Of a stretch of 64,000 nucleotides of DNA, positions 5,001 through 63,515 are shown one piece after another; positions within the stretch are counted from its first letter, which is position 1, and each line of letters opens with the position of its first letter. Source of the stretch: Alphaproteobacteria bacterium AO1-B (GTDB taxonomy: Bacteria; Pseudomonadota; Alphaproteobacteria; Rhizobiales; Stappiaceae); the NCBI GenBank assembly GCA_001890945.1, contig MLAX01000005.1:248001-312000 (forward strand), in the 5' to 3' direction. The notes beneath the pieces were generated by a model, which worked only from the letters and a program-made list of their open reading frames with translations, did no database searches and had not been told where the DNA came from. The position numbers and the translations under genes were made by a program.

Positions 5001-5488
5001 GCAAGCCGGAGCGTACCTTCAAAGTGGCCTTTCAGCTGTTCCAAAACCTGCAGGACCGGGGCTGGATCCGGCAATCCCGGCGGCAAGATCAGGGCGGCTG
5101 GAGAACCCGGGGAAAGCAGGCTCACGTCATCCAGGGTCAGATGACAGGCGCCCTTTTCCGCCCGCCGGTTGCCGATGGTCAAAAGCCGGGTCAGGGTGCC
5201 ATAGGCCTCACGGTCTTTCGGCCAGTAAAGAAGATCTGGCGTGCCGTCGAGAAACGCCAGACGGCAACCGGGCACGAACTTCAATCCGGTCTCTTTTGCC
5301 GCCATATGTGCCCGAACCACACCGGCCATGGAATTGCGGTCACAAATGCCAAGGGCGGCCAGTTGCAAGTGCGCGCCTTGAAGTGCTAGCTCTTCTGGAT
5401 GTGAGGCACCATGAAGAAAGGAGAAATTGGTCGCAGCGCACAGCTCCGCATAAGCGGGCGGCTCCGTGATTAAAGGGCGCCATGTCAT
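2096..5488 (-). CDS. dnaE2: Error-prone DNA polymerase III alpha subunit DnaE2 (ImuC)
   Basis: This 1,130-residue C-family polymerase is the catalytic member of the SOS translesion mutasome. The N-terminal PHP domain starts with YAELCAATNFSFLHGASHP. The palm acidic residues lie in PDIDVDFEHERREE and near EWDKDDLDALGILKIDIL, with the helix-hairpin-helix region after them and a C-terminal OB fold (about residues 970-1070, GLVLVRQRPGSAKGVIFLTL). The length and the OB fold near the end suit DnaE2 better than replicative DnaE1. Its ATG overlaps the imuB stop as ATGA, which implies translational coupling. It is the last gene of imuA-imuB-dnaE2, which sits behind a LexA box, so DNA-damage induction is expected. 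In this family ImuB tethers the polymerase to the beta clamp. Confidence 0.96.
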   Translation of the reverse strand: MTWRPLITEPPAYAELCAATNFSFLHGASHPEELALQGAHLQLAALGICDRNSMAGVVRAHMAAKETGLKFVPGCRLAFLDGTPDLLYWPKDREAYGTLTRLLTIGNRRAEKGACHLTLDDVSLLSPGSPAALILPPGLPDPAPVLQVLEQLKGHFEGTLRLAVALHRKAEDRRRLALARNITQTAGVPMLAINDTLYHAPDRRPLQDVLTCIRLHERLESAGRQLQQNAERHLKPAEEILRLFENDPAPLHESLKILQEVQFSLDDLRYEYPEEPAGESASPQAELERLTLEGAKRRYPEGVPDKIRATIDHELKLVADLDYAPYFLTVYDIVRFARTRGILCQGRGSAANSVVCFCLGITEVDPTKADLLFERFISPERREPPDIDVDFEHERREEVIQYIYAKYGRERAGLAATVITYRSRSALREVGKVFGLSEDAIASLAGTVWGRASAGTEEAQVREAGLDPSDPLITQMLELARTLIGFPRHLSQHVGGFVITRGRLDEVIPIQNAAMEDRTVVEWDKDDLDALGILKIDILALGMLTAIRKALTMLSENYGQDLTISTIPAEEAPVYDMLCRADSVGVFQVESRAQMTMLPRLRPRAFYDLVIEVAIVRPGPIQGDMVHPYLRRRQGKERVSYPSKELEAVLGKTMGVPLFQEQAMKIAIVAAGFTPGEADKLRRAMATFRRVGTIGTFQTKMIEGMAKNGYDRDFAERCFRQIEGFGEYGFPESHAASFALLVYASSWIKAYYPDVFCAALLNSQPMGFYAPGQLVRDAREHGVDVREVDINLSDWDAKLEPGWQAARHLHPRHREMREIVRTDHAVRFGFRAVKGLKQDDMDKLIEHRGDGYDSIRDLWLRSGLSRPVILRLAEADAFRSLGLDRRAAVWAAQGLEAGNQRDRLPLFDIPDFGDLRPEPDADLPPMLPGAHVMADYQSLSLSLKAHPVAFARPALARQNVVPCMNLPDIRQGRQISVAGLVLVRQRPGSAKGVIFLTLEDEGGIANIIVWPKVFEKYRPLVMGARFLKVSGRVQNEAGVIHVVADHVEDVTALLSDLSDKSLDDAGLARADEVKRPVIELTEKIKPASRLVQLIRDVPELRKDVAQIKPHKAAALERQTVKALPGGRNFQ

Positions 5489-7191
5489 GCGAACAGACCC
5501 TGCAGATACCAGCGCGGGCGGCTGGTCTCGCGCTCATAAAGACCTTCCCGGTAGAGCCAAAACCGCCGGCCTTCGGTGTCTTCAATGCGGAAATAATCCC
5601 GGGTCACGCCCTCCTTGGCCCCTGAGGGCCGGTCGTTCGCGCCAATCCACCAGGGCGGGGCAATGCGTTCCGGACCTTCAGAGCGGACGACTTGGTAGAT
5701 GCCGCGGCGCCAGCGGAACCTTAGCGGCGGTCCGTCCGGCACCATGGCCAGAGCCTCGACTTCTTCTGCCGGTTCGATCAGCCGCAAGGGACGTGTCACC
5801 AGACCTTCCTGCCAGCTGGAGGTCTCTATCCCGCCAGCCGGACGGGTGTCTTCAGCAAACCCGAGTTGAGGACTGGATGAGGGGTGCGCGCGGTGAAGAT
5901 CGGGAGCGGCCGCGCCTTTTGAAAATCCGGACCAGACGAGCGCGTCTTGTTGGGCGAAGGCTGCCGGTACATACCCGGTCTGGCTTTCCGGCAGATGCCG
6001 GTCGACCGGCAAAAGCCGGGTAACACGCTCAGGGCCCAAGCGGGCACCCAACCGGTCCACCAGATCGTCCAGGCTCGCATCGGCTTCCGCTGCACCGTGT
6101 GCTGTCAACGCCGATTGAACGGCCGGGGCCTTGTCGGCGACCAGAACATCCAGGCGGACAAGGTCGTAGCCAAAGCCGGCATCAATTGCCCCTTCATCGG
6201 CCTTCAGTTTTTCGGCAAATAGCCGGAGAACGCGTTTGGGGTCGCGCAACGGGCTGCTGGTGCCGACGCGGAATTTTTGAACCGCGCCATCGACCCGAAA
6301 CAGGCTCAATTCGAAGACGCGGCCGCCTTCTACCCGGCGTTCCAGCGCCTTGGCGGCCTGACCGGCCAGAGAAAGCGCGACCGCCTTGACGTCATCGAGT
6401 TGTGAGATGGGATCGAAGAACCGTCGCTCTGCGGAAATCAGCGGAGCTTCGAACCGGGGAGAAATCGCTTCTCCTTGAAGCCCCAACGCCTGATCAAGCC
6501 GGAGGATGAGGTCTGCACCAAAACGGTTGGTGAGCGGCGCGCGCGGCCGGTCATACAGCTGACCAATGGTTTTCAAGCCAACCTGGTTCAGGCCGGAGAC
6601 AGCTTCAGGAGGCACCCGAAGAGCTGCAAGGGGCAAGGGGGCGAGGGCTTGCCGTTCTTGGCTGTCCGCCAAAACACCGCCGGAACCGAAGCGGGCGAGC
6701 GCCCAAGCCGTCGCTGCGGTTCCGGCGATCGCACCGGCAACGCAAAACCCCTGCCGGTGAAGCCTTTCCAAGGCATCGTTTAAAAGGGCCTCTTCTCCTT
6801 TGAAGAGGTGTGCGCAGCCTGTGATGTCGAGAAACAGCCCGTCCTTGCCGTCGAGCGCCACCAAAGGCGTGTAGCGGGCGCACCAATCCGCGACAGCGCC
6901 CAGCAAGGCAGCATCTTTTTCCGGATCGGCGTCTTCACACAAAAGATGCGGGATCCGGGCCCGCGCATCGGCTTCCGCCTCGCCGAGACGCAAGCCGCAG
7001 GCCCTTGCGGTTTCATTCAAGGAGACAATCCGGCGGGCGCCCCGGATTTTTTCCAAAACGGCGAGCGGCGGTTCAGCCTGCCGGGCGGAGGGTGTGGAGC
7101 TGACCCGCAGCCGGCGCAGGATCCGGTCGCAGGGAAGATCCGCGATCCAGAGCGAGAGGATGCGCTGGTGCGGCAAATGTTTGTCTCGCAT
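5485..7191 (-). CDS. imuB: ImuB, catalytically inactive Y-family polymerase-like protein
   Basis: The protein has 568 residues and opens with RILSLWIADLPCDRI, the position where active Y-family polymerases carry the first catalytic Asp in a DxD-type context. That acidic pattern is not conserved here, as expected for ImuB, which acts as a scaffold and clamp-binding hub rather than a polymerase. Palm, fingers and little-finger regions follow to about residue 380, then a C-terminal extension with the ImuB-type GIYQVVRSEGPERIAPPWW and DYFRIEDTEGRRFWLYREG motifs. The start overlaps the 3' end of imuA by 119 bp in another frame, and the stop overlaps dnaE2 by 4 bp. Together these form one co-expressed mutagenesis cassette. 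Confidence 0.94.
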   Translation of the reverse strand: MRDKHLPHQRILSLWIADLPCDRILRRLRVSSTPSARQAEPPLAVLEKIRGARRIVSLNETARACGLRLGEAEADARARIPHLLCEDADPEKDAALLGAVADWCARYTPLVALDGKDGLFLDITGCAHLFKGEEALLNDALERLHRQGFCVAGAIAGTAATAWALARFGSGGVLADSQERQALAPLPLAALRVPPEAVSGLNQVGLKTIGQLYDRPRAPLTNRFGADLILRLDQALGLQGEAISPRFEAPLISAERRFFDPISQLDDVKAVALSLAGQAAKALERRVEGGRVFELSLFRVDGAVQKFRVGTSSPLRDPKRVLRLFAEKLKADEGAIDAGFGYDLVRLDVLVADKAPAVQSALTAHGAAEADASLDDLVDRLGARLGPERVTRLLPVDRHLPESQTGYVPAAFAQQDALVWSGFSKGAAAPDLHRAHPSSSPQLGFAEDTRPAGGIETSSWQEGLVTRPLRLIEPAEEVEALAMVPDGPPLRFRWRRGIYQVVRSEGPERIAPPWWIGANDRPSGAKEGVTRDYFRIEDTEGRRFWLYREGLYERETSRPRWYLQGLFA

Positions 7192-8062
7192 GGTCCCACT
7201 CCACGGTCAGGCGGCCGGGACGGCCCTCCCGGTTCCGCGTCAGGTCGATGTGCCATGCTGGCGCTCCCAGGCCCGCATGGGGTGCTTTTTTCAAGAACTC
7301 CGGAGCCTTTGAGGCGGCCGGAGAAATCTGCCAGCGGGTGACGGCTGCGGTCGGTTCCTGTGCTGCTCCATGACGGAGCAAGATGACCGGGACCGTGCTG
7401 CGGTTGGCCCGCAGGGAAATACGGCGGCTTGCCGTGAGATCCACGAGACGTTCCCCGCCCTGGATTTCGCCGGCAACGGCGGCAAGGGCACTGCAGGACG
7501 CGCCTTCCTCAAGGCACCACAGAACGTCTTCCAGCTTTCTCGCCCGCACCACGATCAGCCGGGCCGGATCAATGCCGAAGTCCAGCAGCCCGGCGCCATG
7601 AAGCCGGCCGGATTCCTGAGTGGCCCGGATATCCTGGACCACCAGAACCGGCCCGGACCTTATGGCCAGAAGCCGTGCAAGAAGCGCAAGGCCGAAGCCA
7701 CTGAGTGCCCCGGCATTGCGGCTTTCGGAGCTGACCACCTCATGCAAGGCCCCCAATTTCAGTCCGCTGCCCGATAAGCTGTTGCCGGGCTGAAACAGCC
7801 GGTCGAGAGTCTCCAGTCCCAAGGGGCACCGGGCGGTGAGGTCATCTGGTCCGTCCTTTCCGGGCGGCTCAGCTTCGAAACCCTCAGCCTGCGTCCTGCC
7901 GTCTGCCGGACGGTCTTTCAAGAAACTGTCCGGCCCCTGCGGGTTGGCGGCGGTCGCAGGGGCCGGACCAAACTGCGTCTTAAAGGGGAGGCGACCCTCA
8001 AGATCCGCAATGCGGCGACGCAGCTCGGCAAGAGATGTGCTATGTTCGGATGCGGCGGACAT
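7073..8062 (-). CDS. imuA: ImuA, RecA-like SOS mutagenesis protein
   Basis: This is a 329-residue RecA/SulA-like protein that opens the imuA-imuB-dnaE2 cassette. The N-terminus has a short helical LAELRRRIADLEGRL segment. The core (GALHEVVSSESRNAGALSGF, then VLVVQDIRATQESGRLHGAG) resembles the RecA fold without a canonical Walker A, and the C-terminus ends in the typical PAWHIDLTRNREGRPGRLTVEW segment. The frame can be opened at a TTG at 8080, but the ATG at 8062 leaves room for the LexA box 32 bp upstream and is preferred. In the family it binds ImuB and RecA and supports damage-induced mutagenesis. The 119-bp overlap with imuB fits a polycistronic message. Confidence 0.93.
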   Translation of the reverse strand: MSAASEHSTSLAELRRRIADLEGRLPFKTQFGPAPATAANPQGPDSFLKDRPADGRTQAEGFEAEPPGKDGPDDLTARCPLGLETLDRLFQPGNSLSGSGLKLGALHEVVSSESRNAGALSGFGLALLARLLAIRSGPVLVVQDIRATQESGRLHGAGLLDFGIDPARLIVVRARKLEDVLWCLEEGASCSALAAVAGEIQGGERLVDLTASRRISLRANRSTVPVILLRHGAAQEPTAAVTRWQISPAASKAPEFLKKAPHAGLGAPAWHIDLTRNREGRPGRLTVEWDHARQTFAAPAHPLALDRGSSLRPDPAPAAGQLHTLRPAG

Positions 8063-8094
8063 TGTGCACGTTGATTCCAATCACGTTGGTTTTT

Positions 8095-8109
8095 GTTCTC
8101 TATTTGTTC
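8095..8109 (-). promoter_or_regulatory. LexA (SOS) box of the imuABC cassette
   Basis: The plus strand reads GTTC-TCTATTT-GTTC, an exact match to the alphaproteobacterial LexA operator GTTC-N7-GTTC. It lies 32 bp upstream of the imuA ATG, where it would overlap the promoter. The direct-repeat site works in either orientation. The gene context (translesion synthesis) makes this a strong assignment. Confidence 0.88.
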
Positions 8110-8588
8110 TTATTGATTCCGGAGAACGGGCAGAGAGTCAAGCAGCTTTTTGAAATGCCGTGCGTGTCCTTTGACCTTGCGTTAGTTTTCAGCGCCTTGT
8201 GTTGTCCTGAAGGTCCGGAAACACGCAAGTTAGTGACGCAGCATTGTCGAGCGGTGAGTGATCCTGAAATGCGGTCACCAAAGATCGCGTATTCCGGACA
8301 GATGGTTCCTCTGGGGTACAATGCGCAGACCTCTGCGGCCTGCCCCCGAGATAAACGGCAAGAATCCGCATGACAACGGCCCGAAAATCCTGTATACGCC
8401 CGCCCAAGTTGGATGAATGCTTGTCTTCCGACAGGAAGCCTTGTGTTCTGGGCGATGCTTTTACCGGGCACCGAACTCCATAAAATCCGGCGGATATGCA
8501 ACATGGCCCAAAGCTGGTGAACCCGTTCTTGGCACCTTTGATCCCAAGGACGCTCTGACCGCTTTGTAATTGAAAAGGGAAACATGCC
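8110..8588. other. Intergenic region upstream of rplS
   Basis: About 480 bp between the imuA operator and rplS with no convincing gene. Open frames here lack a ribosome-binding site or recognisable sequence. It presumably holds the rplS promoter and a long 5' leader. The immediate ribosome-binding region of rplS is the purine run AAAAGGGAAA shortly before the start codon. Confidence 0.5.
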
Positions 8589-9065
8589 ATGAATATCATC
8601 GAGCAGCTGAACGCTGAAGAAATGGCGAAAATCGAAGCTCAGCGTAAGCTTCCTGAATTTTCTCCGGGCGACACCGTCCGCGTTCTGGTGAAGGTCACCG
8701 AAGGCAACCGGACCCGTACACAGGCTTATGAAGGCGTATGCATTGCGCGTTCCGGCGGCGGCATCAACGAAAGCTTCACCGTCCGCAAGATTTCCTACGG
8801 CGAAGGCGTTGAGCGTGTCTTCCCGATTTACTCTCCGATGCTGGAAGGCGTAGAGGTTGTCCGCCGCGGTAAAGTCCGTCGTGCGAAGCTCTACTACCTG
8901 CGCGACCGCCGCGGTAAGTCTGCCCGTATCACAGAGAACACCAACGCCCGCTCCAAGCGCCTCAACGAAGACGCCCGCGCGGAAGCTGCTGCTGCAAAGG
9001 CAGCCAAGGCTGAAGCCAAAAAGGCCGAAGCAGAAGCAGCTGCTGCAGAGACCGCTGCCGAATAA
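8589..9065 (+). CDS. rplS: 50S ribosomal protein L19
   Basis: The 158-residue protein carries the L19 core [20 protein letters not shown] and [17 protein letters not shown], followed by [21 protein letters not shown]19 sits at the 30S-50S interface. The universal part ends near residue 120; beyond it is a low-complexity Ala/Glu/Lys tail of about 35 residues, compared with 115 residues in E. coli L19. It is a single-gene unit with its own terminator downstream. In many alphaproteobacteria rplS directly follows trmD, whereas here it lies upstream of ffh and about 4 kb before trmD. Confidence 0.97.
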
Positions 9066-9093
9066 GCAGCTCTCAAGACCCGTTTCGCAAGGC

Positions 9094-9130
9094 GGCTTCT
9101 GGAGTGATCCAGGAGCCGTTTTGTTGTTTT
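9094..9130 (+). terminator. Rho-independent terminator of rplS
   Basis: GGCTTCTGGA-GTGA-TCCAGGAGCC forms a 10-bp stem with one G-U pair, followed by the T-rich run GTTTTGTTGTTTT, 28 bp after the rplS stop. Confidence 0.85.
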
Positions 9131-9465
9131 GAAGCCATGGGGCGGTTTGTTGCGTGGTGTTTCTTTGTCCAGAGCAGCTTGATGCCGGAAAGGCAGACGG
9201 TGTCTGGCGCTGATAAAGACCAGAAATCCGCAGCCTTCCTTGACTCTCTTTCTTCTTTCCGGCATAAGCCCGCGAACTCCATATGAGTGACTGACATTTC
9301 AATCCGCCGACCGGGACCCGCAAAGGTATAAAGAGCGCCCGGAGGTTCCCACCCGACAGCGCGATGCGCCCTCGGGTGTTAAACTGCTTTGCGCCCTCGC
9401 ATTCGGTTGGATTTCAATGATGGTTCCCCATATGGTTCGGGAGATTTCCCGAAACGAATTGAGCC
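9131..9465. other. Intergenic region between rplS terminator and ffh
   Basis: About 335 bp without a supportable gene. Near its 3' end is an inverted repeat TTCGGGA-GAT-TTCCCGAA-like (about 9437-9453), about 25 bp before the ffh start, which could fold in the ffh leader. No promoter is assigned with confidence. Confidence 0.4.
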
Positions 9466-56491: not shown

Positions 56492-57397
56492 ATGGATCTT
56501 GCAGCCCTTAAAACCGCATTGCTCGTTCGGGACCTAGGAAGTTTTGCAGCCGCCGCACGGATCTTGGATCTCGACGCCTCCAGCGTTTCTCGTGTCATTG
56601 CCCAGCTGGAACAGGATATTGGATTCCGTTTGTTCCAGCGCAGCACCCGCAGTCTCGCGGCAACAGGTGAGGGTGAACTCTACCTCAATCGAATCGCGCC
56701 ACTGGTTGAAGAGTTGGAGGCAGCAGGCGATGAAGCTCGGACAACCGCTGTGTCGCCACGTGGCACTTTGCGAATGACAGCAAGTATTTCGTTCGTACAA
56801 GAGTGCCTGGTGCCGGTTCTCCCGGAGTTTCGGGACAGATTTCCTGATATTGAGATCGAACTCCTGGCTTCTGACGCCAATCTGGATCTTCGTGCCGACA
56901 GTATTGATCTGGCCGTCCGGTTCGGATCCATGCCTAAGGGCGACTGGATTGTCAGCAAGTTGATGACGACACGCTACCGGGTCGTTGCGTCTCCGGAATA
57001 CCTGGAACGTAAGGGGCGCGTTGATGATCCAAACGATCTCTCCGACCGGGATTGTATTCGGTTCGCTATTCCCGGTTTCCGCACGTTGTGGCAATTCAAA
57101 AAAGGCAACGATGAGCCGTTCAATGTGCCGGTTGGCGGTGCAACGGTGATCTCAAATGCCTTGTCGATTCGGTCTGCAGCACGTCTTGGAATGGGGGTCG
57201 CGCTGTTGCCGATCATGCTCGTTGAGAGAGATTTGAAGCGGGGGAGCCTAATCGATCTCTTTCCTGACTATGCCTGTGCAGCGGCATCCTTTGAGACAGC
57301 GGCCTGGCTGGTTTACCCGAGTCGCTCGTACCTGCCTCAAAAGGTTCGGGTGATGATCGACTTTCTACGGGAGAAATATGGGCGGCCAGAAACCTAG
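56492..57397 (+). CDS. LysR family transcriptional regulator
   Basis: The 301-residue protein has the N-terminal winged HTH (LVRDLGSFAAAARILDLDAS, SSVSRVIAQLEQDIGFRLFQ) and a C-terminal substrate-binding domain (LRADSIDLAVRFGSMPKGDW, SNALSIRSAARLGMGVALLP). It is divergent from the azoreductase pseudogene (98-bp gap), the usual arrangement of a LysR gene and its target, so its original target is now broken. It reads toward the acuI operon and ends 14 bp from acuI. Confidence 0.93.
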   Translation: MDLAALKTALLVRDLGSFAAAARILDLDASSVSRVIAQLEQDIGFRLFQRSTRSLAATGEGELYLNRIAPLVEELEAAGDEARTTAVSPRGTLRMTASISFVQECLVPVLPEFRDRFPDIEIELLASDANLDLRADSIDLAVRFGSMPKGDWIVSKLMTTRYRVVASPEYLERKGRVDDPNDLSDRDCIRFAIPGFRTLWQFKKGNDEPFNVPVGGATVISNALSIRSAARLGMGVALLPIMLVERDLKRGSLIDLFPDYACAAASFETAAWLVYPSRSYLPQKVRVMIDFLREKYGRPET

Positions 57398-57411
57398 CCG
57401 CCCGATGTCTC

Positions 57412-58404
57412 TTATGCGTTCACGTCGACGACAACACGGCCTTTGACCTGGCCTTTCAGGATGTCCTTGCCGAGGCCCGGCAAGTCTTCAAGGGTCGCCG
57501 GGTGGATCATTCCGTGCAGCTTGTCGAGCGGCAGGTCCTTGGCGATCCTTTGCCAGGCGCGGACACGGTCATCATAAGGACGCATGACGCTGTCGATGCC
57601 GAGGAGGTTTACACCGCGCAGGATGAACGGGATGACGCTGGCTGGAAGGTTTGCCCCACCGGCAAGACCGATGGTGGCGACCGAGCAGCCGTATTTCATC
57701 TGTCCCAGGATGCGGGCGAGCATGTCACCGCCAACGGCATCAATCGCGCCGGCCCAGACCTCTTTCTCCAATGGTCGCTTGATGGTTTCGGCGACATCAT
57801 CCCGCGGAACAATGGCGCTGGCGCCGAGGGATTTCAGGTAGTCCCAGGTGCTTTCGCGGCCGGTAACGGCATGCACTTCATAGCCAAGGTAGGCCAAGAT
57901 CGCGACCGCGACAGAGCCGACACCGCCCGCAGCACCCGTGACCAGAACCGGACCGTTTTCCGGCTTCAAACCATGGTCTTCCAGTGCCATGACGGCGAGC
58001 ATCGCGGTGAAACCGGCTGTGCCGACCGCCATTGCATCGCGGGTTGTGAGGCCATCCGGCAATGGCACCAGCCATTCGCCCTTGACGCTGGCCTTTTGGG
58101 CATAGCCGCCCCACCAAACTTCTCCGACGCGCCAGCCGGTCAAAACGACCTTGTCGCCTGGCTTGTACCATTCGTCAGAGGATTCTTCGACGGTGCCGGC
58201 AAAATCGATGCCCGGGACATGCGGATAGTCCTTGACCAGACCGCCGCCCGGTCCAACACAAAGGCCGTCCTTGTAATTCAGGGTCGAGTACTCAACCGCA
58301 ACCGTGACATTGCCGTCCGGCAGTTGGTTCTCGTCGATTTCCTTGACGGCGGCGCTGGTTTTGCCGTCTTCGTTCTTGTCGACAACAAGTGCTTTGAAAG
58401 TCAT
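57412..58404 (-). CDS. acuI: Acrylyl-CoA reductase AcuI (MDR superfamily)
   Basis: The 330-residue zinc-independent medium-chain reductase begins with FKALVVDKNEDGKTSAAVKE. It has EYSTLNYKDGLCVGPGGGLV, GIDFAGTVEESSDEWYKPGD, the NADPH motif VTGAAGGVGSVAVAILAYLG and LLGIDSVMRPYDDRVRAWQR, all close to the YhdH/AcuI group. It reduces toxic acrylyl-CoA to propionyl-CoA. It is last in the operon behind dmdA and an acyl-CoA ligase (14-bp gap), the context in which acuI serves DMSP and acrylate catabolism in marine alphaproteobacteria. Confidence 0.9.
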   Translation of the reverse strand: MTFKALVVDKNEDGKTSAAVKEIDENQLPDGNVTVAVEYSTLNYKDGLCVGPGGGLVKDYPHVPGIDFAGTVEESSDEWYKPGDKVVLTGWRVGEVWWGGYAQKASVKGEWLVPLPDGLTTRDAMAVGTAGFTAMLAVMALEDHGLKPENGPVLVTGAAGGVGSVAVAILAYLGYEVHAVTGRESTWDYLKSLGASAIVPRDDVAETIKRPLEKEVWAGAIDAVGGDMLARILGQMKYGCSVATIGLAGGANLPASVIPFILRGVNLLGIDSVMRPYDDRVRAWQRIAKDLPLDKLHGMIHPATLEDLPGLGKDILKGQVKGRVVVDVNA

Positions 58405-58418
58405 GTGAAATATCCCTG

Positions 58419-60053
58419 TTATGCGGTTTCACTTGAGAGTGTCCGGGCCTCTTGCCGCAGGACAAATTTCTGGATTTTGCCGGTGGCCGTTTTCGGCAAC
58501 TCCGTAAAGATGATTTTCTTGGGCCGCTTGAACCCGGCCATGTTCTCCCGGCAAAAGGCGATCAGGCTGTCTTCGGTTGCCTGGCTACCTTCTTTGAGCT
58601 CGACAAAGGCGCAAGGGACTTCGCCCCATTTCTCGTCGGGCAGGGCGACAACAGCCGCAAGGACCACATCCGGATGGCGGTGCAGTACTCCTTCGACCTC
58701 GACGGACGAGATGTTTTCGCCCCCTGAAATGATGACATCCTTCAGTCGGTCACGGATCTGCACATAGCCGTTTTCGTGCCGTACGGCGGCGTCGCCGGAC
58801 TTGAAATGACCGCCGGAAAAGGCCTCATCCGTCGCGTCCCGGTTCTTGTAGTAGCCTTTCATGACCGTGTTGCCGCGAATGACGATCTCGCCCTGCGTTT
58901 CCCCATCCCATGGCACCGGTTCGCCGGTCTCGCGATCAATGACATCAACGCTCTCGGTCATTGGGAAGCCAACGCCTTGCCAGGACTGAAGCTCGGCCTG
59001 TTCGTCGGAGGAAAGGTCGTCCCATTCCTCCCGCCACAGGCATTGGGCGACATGACCATAGGTCTCGGTAAGGCCATAGACCTGCATCACTTCAAAACCG
59101 AGCGCCTTGGTGGCGGCCAGAACCGCTGCTGGCGGCGGAGCGCCGGCGGTCATGATTTTCACTGGGCCAGGCAGGGGTTTCCGGTCTGCCTCTGGTGTGT
59201 TGACCAGCATGGAGAGCACAATGGGCGCGCCGCCCAAATGGCTCACTTGGTGCTTGGCGATCAGGTCGAAGACGGCAGCGCCAGTCACCTGCCGGATGCA
59301 AATGATCGTGCCGGCCATCAAAGTCATGGTCCAGGCATGGCACCAGCCGTTACAGTGGAACATGGGCACGGAATAGAGATAGACCGGATGGCGCGGTAGC
59401 TCCCATGCGATTGGCGTCCCCATCGCCATGAGATAAGCGCCGCGATGGTGGTAGACGACGCCTTTCGGTCGGCCTGACGTGCCGGACGTGTAGTTCAGCG
59501 CCAGCGCTTGCCATTCATCGGCCGGACCTTGCCAGGGAAACGCCGGATCGCCCCTTTGGACCAGATCTTCGAATACCTCGTCACCGATCAACGCGCCGCC
59601 GGGGCCGTCCGGGTCGGCAATGTTGATGATCGGCAGAGCCTTGCCGTTTATGTCGAACGCTTGAGAGATCACGCCGGAAAAGGCGGTGTCCGCGATCACC
59701 AGTTTGGCATCGCTGTGCTCAAGGATATAGGCGACTGTTTCCGGTTCGAGGCGGGTGTTGATCGTGTTCAGCACCGCGCCGGTCAACGGGACTGCATAGT
59801 GGAGCTCAAACAGCTCGGGTGTGTTCGCCGCCATCACAGAGACTGTGTCGCCAAGCCCGATGCCGCGCTGCTTTAAGCTCGAAGCGATCCGGCGTACCCG
59901 CTCCAGAACATCGTACCAAGTGTAGTGGCGGTCGTTGTATACAACAGCCAGCCGATCCGGGAACAATGCTGCTGTCCGCGCCAGAAAAGAAAGCGGTGAT
60001 AGCGGAACGTGGTTGGCGGTTTGCGGCGGTGGGGCCTCGTAATGGTCTCTCAC
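58419..60053 (-). CDS. AMP-forming acyl-CoA ligase (DmdB-like candidate)
   Basis: The 544-residue adenylate-forming ligase has the P-loop LNYTSGTSGRPKGVVYHHRG (about residue 190), the A5 motif QVYGLTETYGHVAQCLW, GEIVIRGNTVMKGYYKN, and the C-terminal A8/A10 motifs RDRLKDVIISGGENISSVEV and KTATGKIQKFVLR. Between dmdA (1-bp gap) and acuI (14-bp gap) it is best explained as the MMPA-CoA ligase DmdB, or as a ligase making acrylyl-CoA; a general short/medium-chain fatty acid ligase cannot be excluded. The GTG start follows GGGGGG by 5 bp. Confidence 0.85.
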   Translation of the reverse strand: MRDHYEAPPPQTANHVPLSPLSFLARTAALFPDRLAVVYNDRHYTWYDVLERVRRIASSLKQRGIGLGDTVSVMAANTPELFELHYAVPLTGAVLNTINTRLEPETVAYILEHSDAKLVIADTAFSGVISQAFDINGKALPIINIADPDGPGGALIGDEVFEDLVQRGDPAFPWQGPADEWQALALNYTSGTSGRPKGVVYHHRGAYLMAMGTPIAWELPRHPVYLYSVPMFHCNGWCHAWTMTLMAGTIICIRQVTGAAVFDLIAKHQVSHLGGAPIVLSMLVNTPEADRKPLPGPVKIMTAGAPPPAAVLAATKALGFEVMQVYGLTETYGHVAQCLWREEWDDLSSDEQAELQSWQGVGFPMTESVDVIDRETGEPVPWDGETQGEIVIRGNTVMKGYYKNRDATDEAFSGGHFKSGDAAVRHENGYVQIRDRLKDVIISGGENISSVEVEGVLHRHPDVVLAAVVALPDEKWGEVPCAFVELKEGSQATEDSLIAFCRENMAGFKRPKKIIFTELPKTATGKIQKFVLRQEARTLSSETA

Positions 60054-60054
60054 T

Positions 60055-61176
60055 CTAGCCCCCCTGGTTGCAGAACGGGGTTTCCCAAACGGTCGCGCTG
60101 CGCATACCGTGCGGCGTGTCGACCTGAACCCTCGTGCCGTCGTCCCAATGGGTCATGCGGACCATGCCGATCGCGACATTGGTTCTGAAATCCGGGGAGT
60201 AGGCGGCCGAACTGATTGTCCCAACCTGCCGGCCACCACCGATGATGGGCCATAACTCGTTACAAGGCGGTACGGGATCGCCATCAATCGCCACACTGCG
60301 GATCTGGCGGACAGGTCCTTCGACCGCAACACGGAGCAGCGCGTCCCGGCCGACACAGCCGATCGCTTGCTGTGTCTGACAGAACTTTCCAAGTCCACAT
60401 TCGTGCGGCGTGTTGTTGCGGGTCATGTCGTTGCCGTAGGACAGAAGTTGCCCCTCGATCCGCTCGATCAGGTTGGGGCACCCGGCCCGGACATCCATGT
60501 CCGCTCCCGCTTCCATGAAGGCATCCCAGACGGGTTCGCCCCATTTGCTGCCATCGACATAGAGCTCAAACCCGCCCTGCTTTGAGTAGCCGGAACGCGC
60601 CAGCACCATGCGCTGCCCCTCAAACTCCACATAGTCATAGTGAAAGAACCGTATGGATCGGATGCGTTCTCCGAAGACCCGGGCGACAAGGTCCTCAGCT
60701 TTGGGGCCCTGAATGGCAAAAGGCGAAACGTCCGGCTCATCAACATCGACTTCCAGGCGGAACGCGTGCGCAAGCCCCTTGATCCAGAACAGAAGATCAC
60801 TGTCGGCAACTGAAACCCAGTATTTGTCTTCAGCAAGTTTCGTTGTGACCGGATCGTTCAGCATTCCCCCGGTCTCATCGACCATCGGCGTGTAGTAGCA
60901 CCGGTTGAGTGCCATGTCCGACAGGTCCCGCGGTGTCAGCATTTGCGCCAGACGCCCGGCGTCCGGGCCCCAGAGTTCGACCTGGCGTTCGCAGGACACG
61001 TCCCAGATCTGAACCCTTGATTTCAGATGCTTATAGTCCTCTTCCACCGACTCAAAGACAGTCGGAAGAAGCATATGGTTGTAGACGGTGTAGGCTTTAA
61101 CACCGGCTTCCTGGACACGGCGCGAAAACGGTGTCTTGCGCGTGCGCCGGGAGATGGACAGAGACGGGACCTGCAT
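60055..61176 (-). CDS. dmdA: Dimethylsulfoniopropionate demethylase DmdA (GcvT-like)
   Basis: The 373-residue glycine-cleavage-T-fold protein starts with RRTRKTPFSRRVQEAGVKAY, followed by TVYNHMLLPTVFESVEEDY and VQIWDVSCERQVELWGPDAG. Further marks are CYYTPMVDETGGMLNDPVTT, DVSPFAIQGPKAEDLVARVF, FFHYDYVEFEGQRMVLARSG, RAGCPNLIERIEGQLLSYGN and DMTRNNTPHECGLGKFC. These agree closely with DmdA as I recall it and differ from GcvT proper, so it should transfer a methyl group from DMSP to tetrahydrofolate, giving methylmercaptopropionate. GGAGGA precedes the ATG. Gene neighbours support this. Confidence 0.88.
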   Translation of the reverse strand: MQVPSLSISRRTRKTPFSRRVQEAGVKAYTVYNHMLLPTVFESVEEDYKHLKSRVQIWDVSCERQVELWGPDAGRLAQMLTPRDLSDMALNRCYYTPMVDETGGMLNDPVTTKLAEDKYWVSVADSDLLFWIKGLAHAFRLEVDVDEPDVSPFAIQGPKAEDLVARVFGERIRSIRFFHYDYVEFEGQRMVLARSGYSKQGGFELYVDGSKWGEPVWDAFMEAGADMDVRAGCPNLIERIEGQLLSYGNDMTRNNTPHECGLGKFCQTQQAIGCVGRDALLRVAVEGPVRQIRSVAIDGDPVPPCNELWPIIGGGRQVGTISSAAYSPDFRTNVAIGMVRMTHWDDGTRVQVDTPHGMRSATVWETPFCNQGG

Positions 61177-61188
61177 GCCGGGTCCTCC

Positions 61189-61815
61189 CTATGCGGCCTG
61201 TTCGACGGCTGGGCCGGACCAGTCGATCTGACAGATTTCGGCGCTGCGGCCGTCAAAGTCCCAAACACGGCCATAGGCACGGACACGGCCCTGAGTGGCG
61301 GTTGCGACCGTGATGTCCGAGCCCATCCAGTACTCGGTGTTTGTGACCACGATATCCTGGTCCGGATCAGATCCGCCAACCGGAACGACTTCGCCCTTGA
61401 TTGCCTTGCCAACAATCAGGCGGCGCTTCTTGCCTTCGTTTTCGTAAGTCACAGGCGCGCGTTCAGCGCCGAGGAATTCGCTCACCAGGACCTTGAAGAG
61501 ACCTGTTGTGCCCTTGGCCTGACCGGAGAAGATCTTCAAAAGGCCATCATAGGCGGCTTCCGAAGCGCGTTCGTCGATATAGGCAGCGGCTTTCCAATTC
61601 CCGCGGGCCATCAGACCAGGGATTTCGAGGACAAGGCCGACATTCAAACCGGACAGATCTTCGCCCATATAATGACCTTCATCGATCCGGACACCAGCCC
61701 AGGCCTGGCAGTAGCCCTCTGTCGGCGCGTGTTTTCCAAGCGAAACGACGCACGGGCAGAAAACGGTGCAATTGCAGTTGAGGATCAATTCCCCTCGGAT
61801 GGCCCATCCAGTCAT
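61189..61815 (-). CDS. DUF1326 protein with N-terminal Cys cluster
   Basis: The 208-residue protein opens with GELILNCNCTVFCPCVVSLG, a CNC-x3-CPC cluster that looks like a metal site, then KHAPTEGYCQAWAGVRIDEG and LVLEIPGLMARGNWKAAAYI. The rest is a predicted beta-rich domain without known catalytic motifs. The family commonly travels with DUF2182 membrane proteins, as here (11 bp after it). It starts 12 bp before dmdA. The role is unknown; binding of copper or another soft metal is an inference from the Cys pattern. Confidence 0.85.
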   Translation of the reverse strand: MTGWAIRGELILNCNCTVFCPCVVSLGKHAPTEGYCQAWAGVRIDEGHYMGEDLSGLNVGLVLEIPGLMARGNWKAAAYIDERASEAAYDGLLKIFSGQAKGTTGLFKVLVSEFLGAERAPVTYENEGKKRRLIVGKAIKGEVVPVGGSDPDQDIVVTNTEYWMGSDITVATATQGRVRAYGRVWDFDGRSAEICQIDWSGPAVEQAA

Positions 61816-61826
61816 TCTTGTCTCCG

Positions 61827-62615
61827 TTATAGATGTTTTATGAGTTCGATAATGAGGATCGCAGCTGCAGATCCCAGAAGTGCAAAACCGACAGGCACGG
61901 TCAGGTAACGGCCGAGCTGTGGGAGTTTTTCAAAGGTCATCAGCAGCATTGCGAGGCCCATGAAGGCGAGGTTCATGGTGCCGGCAACAAAGGCGAGCAG
62001 CATGAGGGCCCAGCAACAGCCGAGGCAGATCGCGCCAAGGTGCAATCCCATCCGGAAAGCGCCCGAAAGCCCATCTTGCCATTTGCCCATGAAGAACATC
62101 AGCGGGCTCTGGCATTGGTTGAGACAGGCTTCTTTCAGTCGGCTGAACTGGTACGCTCCGGCAAGCGCCAAAAGGCCCGCGGTCAAATAGACTTCGGAAC
62201 TGCGGCCGAAGGGGTCCAGCCAGCCTTGTGTGTCCAGCGCAGCCTGCAGAAGAGCTGCCGGAACCGAAAAGCCGATCCAGACGAGCAGGTAGCCGGCAAG
62301 CAGCGCTGAGAAACCGGCGATTGTGGCACCTTGCGTATGGGTGAGATCGAGATAGGTTTTCAGTGCGGGCGCAACGGTTGGCGCCATCATTGCAAGGGAC
62401 ATCAAGCCCCACATTGCGATCAATCCGGCAAGGCTTGTGTCTGCGGCCGGACGGCAGAGAGATGCCAGGTAATCTAGGCCGAGCGCTTGCCAGCCCGCGG
62501 GCAGATCGAGATCCGGTTGCATCAGGAAAAGAGCTGCCCACGCGCCAAGAACCGCGACAAAAAACGCGATCCAGGCGGCTTGGCGCCGGTCAACTAATTG
62601 AAGGGCGATCTGCAC
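61827..62615 (-). CDS. DUF2182 integral membrane protein with Cys motifs
   Basis: The 262-residue protein has about seven membrane segments. The DUF2182 signature shows as MWGLMSLAMMAPTVAPALKT (about residue 64), FSRLKEACLNQCQSPLMFFM (about 157) and HLGAICLGCCWALMLLAFVA (about 191), with Cys pairs in the last two. It is described as a predicted metal-binding membrane protein family. The start is taken at GTG 62615, which has GGAGG 7 bp upstream; ATG 62630 is possible. It is the first gene of the operon with DUF1326, dmdA, the ligase and acuI, and divergent from a GntR regulator. Confidence 0.85.
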   Translation of the reverse strand: MQIALQLVDRRQAAWIAFFVAVLGAWAALFLMQPDLDLPAGWQALGLDYLASLCRPAADTSLAGLIAMWGLMSLAMMAPTVAPALKTYLDLTHTQGATIAGFSALLAGYLLVWIGFSVPAALLQAALDTQGWLDPFGRSSEVYLTAGLLALAGAYQFSRLKEACLNQCQSPLMFFMGKWQDGLSGAFRMGLHLGAICLGCCWALMLLAFVAGTMNLAFMGLAMLLMTFEKLPQLGRYLTVPVGFALLGSAAAILIIELIKHL

Positions 62616-62679
62616 CCAATGTCCTCCCATATCGTTGAGAAAAGGCTGAGCGCATCTGTTGCAAAAGTCAAATAATTAA

Positions 62680-62690
62680 TTGTCTGACAT
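62680..62690. promoter_or_regulatory. Candidate FadR-type GntR operator
   Basis: TTGTCTGACAT contains the perfect 9-bp palindrome TGTCTGACA and fits the GT-N3-AC core of FadR-subfamily operators. It is in the divergent gap between the dmdA operon and the FadR-type regulator, a natural site for joint control. Confidence 0.55.
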
Positions 62691-62734: not shown

Positions 62735-62777
62735 TGTAGAGAGGCACCGGGGACGGGTGCGTGCAAAGGAGACACCA

Positions 62778-63515
62778 TTGGCAATCGAGTATCAGGCGAT
62801 CCGCAAGGAGGGTTTGTCGACCCAGATTGCCAATGCGATCCGTAAGGCCATTCTCGACGGCGCGTTGAGCGTAGAAGAGCGTTTGCCGAGTGAAACAGAG
62901 CTCGCTGATCGGTTCGGGGTGTCCCGGGCAACTGTGCGCGAAGCGATGAAGCGTCTTGCGGCCCAAAACCTTATTCGTTCTGAAAGGGGTGCGTCCGGCG
63001 GCGCTTTCGTCAACCGTATTACGTTTGATGAGGCCCGTGGTGATCTCGTGGGCACGACCCGGCTTCTCATCGGCATGAATAACATCCCGTTTGAAGATGC
63101 CATCGAAGCCCGTTACCTTCTGGAGTCTTCTTGCCTGGCACTCGCGTGCGAAAACCGCAGCGAAGACGATCTGACCGCAATGGCCCGGGAGATCAGCCTT
63201 CAAAGCGGGGATCTGTCGGACGAAGACTTCTGCGATTCAGATGTCCGGTTTCACTCGGTCATTGCCAAGGCAACCGGAAACCCGTTGCTGATGTTTCAGG
63301 TCTCGGGCGCGATCGAAGCCATGCAGCCCTTGATGAACATGCTGGTCTACCGGCTTCGCGACAAGAAGCACATTGCCGGCCTTCATGACCGTCTTCGCGA
63401 CGCGCTGGGCAATCGTGATAGTGTGGCGGCGCAGACGGTTTTGGAAGAAATCGCTGCTTATACCCGGCAACTGGCGGAGCTGCGACGCGCTCCAAAGGAA
63501 GAGCCGGCAAACTGA
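62778..63515 (+). CDS. FadR-subfamily GntR transcriptional regulator
   Basis: The 245-residue protein has the N-terminal winged HTH (QIANAIRKAILDGALSVEER, then LPSETELADRFGVSRATVRE, AMKRLAAQNLIRSERGASGG) and a C-terminal all-helical FCD domain (IEARYLLESSCLALACENRS, DVRFHSVIAKATGNPLLMFQ) with the Asp/His metal site pattern. The start is the TTG with AAAGGAG 6 bp upstream; the open frame begins seven codons earlier. Divergence from the dmdA operon suggests it controls DMSP demethylation, as a GntR-type regulator beside dmdA-acuI is known in roseobacters; the effector would be a pathway intermediate. Confidence 0.9.
   Translation: MAIEYQAIRKEGLSTQIANAIRKAILDGALSVEERLPSETELADRFGVSRATVREAMKRLAAQNLIRSERGASGGAFVNRITFDEARGDLVGTTRLLIGMNNIPFEDAIEARYLLESSCLALACENRSEDDLTAMAREISLQSGDLSDEDFCDSDVRFHSVIAKATGNPLLMFQVSGAIEAMQPLMNMLVYRLRDKKHIAGLHDRLRDALGNRDSVAAQTVLEEIAAYTRQLAELRRAPKEEPAN

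Follow-up and report, generated by a model that had tools for sequence, protein, structure and literature searches.

The window analyzed here is a stretch of 64,000 nucleotides from Alphaproteobacteria bacterium AO1-B (Stappiaceae; assembly GCA_001890945.1, contig MLAX01000005.1, forward-strand positions 248,001 to 312,000). Its minus strand carries five codirectional genes, encoding a DUF2182 membrane protein, a Cys-rich DUF1326 protein, the dimethylsulfoniopropionate (DMSP) demethylase DmdA, an AMP-binding acyl-coenzyme A (CoA) ligase and AcuI, separated by gaps of 11, 12, 1 and 14 bp (Table 1). The gene dmdA starts the DMSP demethylation route, which prevents sulfur from being lost from the sea as dimethyl sulfide. 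We will refer to the first two genes as "the pair", and they are the main subject of this report: in many marine bacteria, the genes for DMSP breakdown begin with two uncharacterized Cys-rich proteins that look made for copper handling.

Table 1. Features of the DMSP/acrylate locus, in positions of the window.
Feature	Positions	Strand	Basis or remarks
GntR/FCD-type regulator	62757..63515	+	divergent from operon; PF00392 and PF07729
Putative GntR operator TTGTCTGACAT	62680..62690	.	consensus TTGTCnGACAA, between GntR gene and DUF2182
DUF2182 / PpoB2-family membrane protein	61827..62615	-	262 aa from GTG; PF09948, E 8.1e-62
DUF1326 Cys-rich protein, type I	61189..61815	-	PF07040, E 2.2e-51
DmdA, DMSP demethylase	60055..61176	-	NF009133, 631.6 bits (cut-off 410)
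AMP-binding acyl-CoA ligase, PRK08162 type; candidate acrylate-CoA (or MMPA-CoA) ligase	58419..60053	-	NF006020, 839.7 bits
AcuI, acrylyl-CoA reductase	57412..58404	-	TIGR02823, 453.5 bits (cut-off 297.25)
Terminator-like hairpin directly after acuI	57380..57403	-	10 pairs, 8 G-C

That these genes form a real unit is well supported by the short gaps, by a conserved palindrome upstream and by the terminator-like hairpin downstream. Co-transcription of all five genes is probable on these grounds, and transcription of the pair apart from dmdA-acuI is, judged by layout, unlikely. An earlier note on this DNA had described the same five genes and spacing, which gene calls and family matches confirm, and a single promoter/operator region serving all of them finds support in layout, palindrome and hairpin. 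The hairpin alone is weak evidence, since the region holds nine such structures versus 5.5 (standard deviation 2.9) in shuffles; a LysR gene facing the operon ends at 57397. The GTG start of the DUF2182 gene at 62615 is preceded by GGGAGGA, with an alternative in-frame ATG at 62630, and a sigma-70 promoter scan gave no match, 1.7 being expected by chance.

By its sequence, DmdA is a genuine member of the DMSP demethylase family. It exceeds the equivalog cut-off of the NCBIfam model, the next-best model reaching 164 bits; the solved structure 3TFH matches its residues 5-356 (E 5.8e-110), and it is 99% identical to DmdA of Labrenzia sp. R4_2, in keeping with the Roseibium/Labrenzia appearance of the window. 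In a tree of 122 DmdA and DmdA-like rows (a quick one without bootstrap, as are all trees here), it lies inside a Roseibium clade near the DmdA of Kiloniellaceae and roseobacters; five of the six rows below the NF009133 cut-off fall outside DmdA, and the sixth, L151, is placed within it on a branch 1.67 long (loci and genomes carry our own L and G labels). Score and tree thus uphold the DmdA call of the earlier note, and no grouping with non-DMSP GcvT-like proteins was seen. The ligase, which the same note counted among the known parts of DMSP/3-methylmercaptopropionate (MMPA) and acrylate metabolism, is not of the DmdB type: the protein clears the cut-off of the acyl-CoA synthetase model NF006020 (677) and reaches only 312 bits against the DmdB model NF005426, below the cut-off of 822. 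No ligase of the genome attains that value, and the closest DmdB relative (728 bits) sits elsewhere. Because of these non-DmdB scores, and because PF00501 ligases adjoin acuI in three metagenomic clones for which the accessible part of the report proposes acrylate as substrate (PMC4029986), we rank acrylate-CoA ligase first and MMPA-CoA ligase second as the probable activity. AcuI exceeds the cut-off of the acrylyl-CoA reductase family model (Table 1) and scores 439.3 bits against the AcuI model NF051456, whose cut-off is 440. That cut-off is reached in only 12 of 120 genomes of family f25, with a match under E 1e-80 in 108; this sample holds a single genome for each of 120 genera of the family of G022, which we equate with Rhodobacteraceae since its DmdA rows lie among those of named roseobacters.

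Regarding the pair, the membrane protein matches PF09948 with 208.9 bits (Pfam gathering cut-off 28.7), a family presently named PpoB2, copper chaperone, in Pfam; its partner matches PF07040 with 174.9 bits (gathering cut-off 25). DUF1326 proteins were split into types I and II by a profile built from hits in these loci, type I scoring 280 bits or more. In the residue alignments, where some rows are near-duplicates, C169, C173, C202, C205 and C206 of DUF2182 (numbered from the ATG) are present in 134/134 rows of both types, together with several Met kept in nearly all of them, and C14, C16, C20, C22 and C36 of DUF1326 in 148/148 rows of types I and II; H29, W39, W163, M164 and C195 are found in 90-100% of type I versus 0-5% of type II. 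By hydropathy, DUF1326 is free of hydrophobic segments and DUF2182 has five. Both predicted models reach 85 in the predicted local distance difference test (pLDDT), that of DUF2182 being all-helical. Searching solved relatives by sequence gave nothing convincing for DUF1326 (best E 0.27) and nothing for DUF2182 at E up to 1, and a fold search with the DUF2182 model yielded a best E of only 0.73. In the accessible part of its description, PpoB2 of Marinomonas reportedly helps to transfer copper to a tyrosinase (PMC2855505), the only open-licence paper found on the COG and Pfam families of the pair. The PpoB2 family, the invariant Cys and Met, and the combination of a membrane with a soluble partner would fit a soft-metal unit, probably for Cu(I), of one membrane and one cytoplasmic protein, with type I as a specialized form; copper-chaperone family and invariant residues also favor the metal theme suggested earlier for these Cys-rich proteins. 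A second PpoB2-family gene is present in the genome (G000:C11:698393-698965; L002, L146), with no DUF1326 found in the surrounding 19 kb.

The divergent GntR/FCD protein is the likely regulator of the operon. Among the named dmdA loci, of which the best 80 of 325 were taken (a selection leaning toward the relatives of the window), 71 have a GntR gene no more than 5 kb from dmdA. Allowing one mismatch, the palindrome TTGTCnGACAA is found between GntR and DUF2182 in 42 of 61 named loci; allowing two, in 55. A wider set gives 54 of 74 regions at one mismatch versus 0.48 expected from mononucleotide shuffles, and 19 other half-site permutations reach at most 1/74, figures to be read knowing that the set repeats window/L273 and L049/L118, that the regions are related and that the palindrome was noticed before being counted. 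Among the 80 named loci, eight combine GntR, dmdA and acuI but have no pair, and seven of them (L072 is the exception) carry the palindrome ahead of dmdA within one mismatch, so that the pair sits inside a regulon also existing in its absence. Genome-wide, the loose form WTGTCNGACAW has 60 sites versus 7 for a reversed control, too many to define a regulon. The dmdA-acuI genes of Ruegeria pomeroyi are induced by acrylate and DMSP, according to the accessible part of PMC3338564; no open-licence paper on their regulator was found.

The link between the pair and dmdA is strong within one group of bacteria. Family f25 has 54 dmdA genes in 49 genomes and 66 DUF1326 genes in 57 genomes; DUF1326 lies within 5 kb of 37 of the 54 dmdA genes, on the same strand in 37/37, and a linked pair is found in 37 of the 49 dmdA-bearing genomes. 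Of the 120 genomes, 39 have both genes, 10 only dmdA, 18 only DUF1326 and 53 neither (Fisher p 4e-9; this and all p values below ignore kinship). The 80 named loci include 66 with type I DUF1326, 65 with DUF2182, 65 with both and 69 with AcuI, the flanks of pair-less L102 and L107 being too short to judge. Gene models in the loci of relatives are longest open reading frames, with rough starts and some overlaps (L106 and L112 look reversed for that reason), and L061/L063 and L049/L118 are near-duplicates. In the DmdA tree, nearly all pair-bearing dmdA fall in one clade of 89 rows, with a support of 82 in the Shimodaira-Hasegawa-like approximate likelihood ratio test (SH-aLRT), and pair status changes 12 times over 119 scored rows (L107, L138 and L144 were omitted for short upstream flanks). 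The exception, L137 (G193, 5082-9142), is a long-branch DmdA of another family with the same order of pair, DmdA and ligase, which suggests transfer or independent assembly. The pair-dmdA link therefore marks one DmdA clade, with absences inside it, plus the distant L137, so that the neighborhood count proposed in the earlier note did find enrichment, confined to that clade.

Further genes recur in these loci. In 38 of the 80 named loci, DUF1326 is separated from dmdA by a DinB-family gene (PF05163 in L052, 7411-7920). DinB-family members elsewhere are metal-dependent thiol transferases, and because of this the gene would fit a theme of thiols and electrophiles. Besides, the class V aminotransferase, BCCT transporter and photolyase families, named by representatives downstream of acuI in L052 and L053, are found within 8 kb of type I DUF1326 in 33, 32 and 28 of 89 loci, respectively.

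The pair is also found away from dmdA. In the DUF1326 tree (108 rows), type I is one clade of 66 rows (SH-aLRT 99). In family f25, DUF1326 lies within 5 kb of 33 of the 37 dmdA-linked acuI genes versus 11 of the 74 acuI genes away from dmdA, and in 10 of the 11 genomes with DUF1326-acuI away from intact dmdA, the whole genome yields no dmdA above the search threshold. G398 (L236, 6337-7438) keeps pair and acuI with two dmdA fragments between DUF1326 and acuI, and in L223, a locus without adjacent dmdA, acuI is on the opposite strand. Four loci of another family (L249, L252, L256 and L258) have pair and ligase with no adjacent dmdA; the genome of L258 encodes dmdA elsewhere (566.7 bits), and L249 continues with a DddP-like M24 protein (394.7 bits, cut-off 600). 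In L225 the pair precedes a crotonyl-CoA carboxylase/reductase (544.8 bits, cut-off 378.55). Because 11 loci keep it together with acuI while no intact dmdA adjoins, the pair is not tied to demethylation alone: it belongs to a DMSP/acrylate setting in family f25 and Roseibium, and is limited neither to demethylation nor, elsewhere, clearly to DMSP.

Our best reading, put forward tentatively on the basis of the observed five-gene unit, its retention within one clade, an operator-like palindrome and the invariant Cys and Met sets, is that of a pair handling Cu(I) and thiols within a GntR-controlled operon. The five genes would form one transcription unit for DMSP and acrylate catabolism, with the GntR protein probably binding the palindrome until a catabolite, for instance acrylate or acryloyl-CoA, releases it. 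A methyl group would be taken off DMSP by DmdA, the ligase would most likely form the CoA ester of acrylate (or MMPA), and AcuI would reduce the toxic acryloyl-CoA. The pair at the head would handle a soft metal, in all likelihood Cu(I), with DUF2182/PpoB2 contributing membrane Cys and Met ligands and DUF1326 a cytoplasmic five-Cys site; induced with the pathway, it may keep copper and thiols in order during the production of methanethiol, MMPA-derived thiols and thiol-reactive acryloyl-CoA, whether by binding Cu(I), by exporting it or by passing it to a copper enzyme. We infer both the protective role and the identity of the inducer.

Several points weigh against this reading. Copper as the metal would be drawn from a single studied family member, PpoB2, and no experiment on the DUF2182-DUF1326 pair was found in the open-licence literature. 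The palindrome is absent at one mismatch from 19 of the 61 named regions. Across the class (385 genomes), the pair stands at only 6 of the 34 dmdA genes passing the cut-off (window, L113, L114, L115, L118 and L137), some of the others lying on short contigs, and a Phaeobacter/Pseudophaeobacter group of seven rows, inside the pair-bearing clade, has dmdA without it. Six loci of g398, a perhaps rhizobial genus of the same taxonomic order as the source of the window, carry a type I pair (L297-L302; 288-294 bits) with no known DMSP gene seen nearby; the next same-strand gene begins about 650 bp on in L297 and L301, the genes of L301 being a quinone reductase and an ABC transporter, and all eight g398 genomes with a match have the type I-like form (about 290 bits). 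Contexts of type II pairs were rejected as a functional clue, no neighbor family being common to more than two members (42 of 156 neighbors, picked by eye). The role linked to demethylation products, as first suggested for the pair, is consequently retained as a link to the DMSP operon in one large clade and given up as a tie to demethylation only, in view of the 11 acuI loci, the four ligase loci and these six.

The acetoacetate decarboxylase-like fold of the DUF1326 model, lastly, could mean an enzyme. DUF1326 would then catalyze a step of the pathway in a metal- or thiol-dependent manner, with an acetoacetate-decarboxylase-like barrel, an acrylate, acyl-CoA or thiol intermediate as its substrate and DUF2182 as its metal supplier or membrane partner. 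Acetoacetate decarboxylases are the best solved matches of this model (pLDDT 85) in Foldseek (E 1.7e-5, probability 1.00), type I retains the five residues that type II lacks, and type I pairs precede acyl-CoA enzymes, namely AcuI, the ligase or, in L225, the crotonyl-CoA carboxylase/reductase. However, the 13 matches under E 0.001 have template modelling (TM) scores of only 0.33-0.43, and the five shared Cys resemble a metal or redox site. Acetoacetate decarboxylase catalysis uses a Schiff-base lysine, which is missing here, since no Lys occurs in the invariant or nearly invariant columns of the DUF1326 alignment A1. We regard an enzymatic DUF1326 as unlikely.

A further alternative is hitch-hiking: a metal unit of general purpose would have come to stand before dmdA-acuI a single time, in an ancestor, and have been inherited without any functional tie. 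Such an origin would agree with the concentration of pair-bearing dmdA in a single clade and with the 28 of 34 dmdA loci without the pair across the class, short contigs included. It agrees poorly with the type I clade, which in most of the loci sampled is accompanied by DmdA, AcuI or the ligase, though DmdA linkage changes 13 times over the 108-row DUF1326 tree, and with the distant L137, where the arrangement is the same; furthermore, the pair stays at the head despite rearrangements such as the DinB insertion in 38 named loci or the ligase preceding dmdA in L064, L066, L096 and L103. Inheritance without function is quite improbable.

The pair could also be the copper loader of MtoX (SBP56), a copper-dependent methanethiol oxidase that consumes the methanethiol arising downstream of DmdA. 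MtoX contains copper and mtoX often adjoins SCO1/SenC copper chaperones, as stated in the accessible part of PMC5739008, and the genome of the window encodes SBP56 (584.6 bits). In L231 of G449, SBP56 (G449:C1:190712-192088) immediately follows a dmdA (about 7450-8646 of the locus) that lacks the DUF pair and has the same orientation, and in L237 (G427:C11:633000-650000) it lies within 3 kb of DUF1326 of a DUF2182-DUF1326-dmdA-acuI cluster, on the opposite strand. Among f25 genomes without dmdA, it occurs in 4/10 with pair and acuI versus 7/61 others (p 0.04, uncorrected). Nevertheless, presence of the pair does not follow SBP56 among the dmdA carriers, where it is found in 23/37 with a linked pair versus 7/12 without (p 1.0), or in 19/37 versus 7/12 if strong matches only are counted (p 0.75); 14 of the 37 pair carriers have no SBP56 match, and the chaperones reported by mtoX are of the SCO1 type (PMC5739008, accessible part). 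A pair dedicated to MtoX seems very doubtful, the weak link among genomes without dmdA notwithstanding. Cupin DMSP lyases (PF16867, over the cut-off in 49/120 f25 genomes) were rejected as clients, with no link among dmdA carriers (23/37 versus 6/12, p 0.51) or in genomes without dmdA (3/10 with pair and acuI versus 17/61 others).

Returning to the Cu(I)/thiol-handling pair, its significance would go beyond this genome. If a copper/thiol module heads the operon in most dmdA-bearing genera of family f25, copper supply may limit or shape the demethylation route, and gene counts based on dmdA alone miss part of the system. A bolder proposal, which we consider rather doubtful, is that bacterial DMSP degradation has a missing functional part in the type I pair, which, together with the often adjoining DinB-family protein, would provide a copper-dependent step or a protection system dedicated to it and let roseobacters run DMSP/acrylate catabolism, including those without methanethiol oxidase. 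In any case, the pair is a conserved and testable component of an important marine pathway.

Three described systems can be compared with this locus. The dmdA-acuI operon is already known, and the DUF2182-DUF1326 pair at its head, of which no description was found in the open-licence literature, is apparently its undescribed part. In Ruegeria pomeroyi DSS-3, dmdA is likewise followed by acuI in an acrylate- and DMSP-induced operon that is likely co-transcribed, whereas in the window two genes precede dmdA and a ligase gene separates it from acuI; the accessible part of that report does not mention the pair (PMC3338564). PpoB2 of Marinomonas mediterranea (COG5486, PF09948) belongs to the same membrane protein family and has evidence of copper transfer, but it serves tyrosinase, in the part of its description available to us (PMC2855505), while the member in the window adjoins DUF1326 in a DMSP/acrylate operon. 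Finally, the mtoX-SCO1-mauG cluster (PMC5739008, as far as accessible) also places copper-handling genes with the catabolism of sulfur compounds, although its protein families differ and the pair of the window does not co-occur with SBP56 among dmdA carriers.

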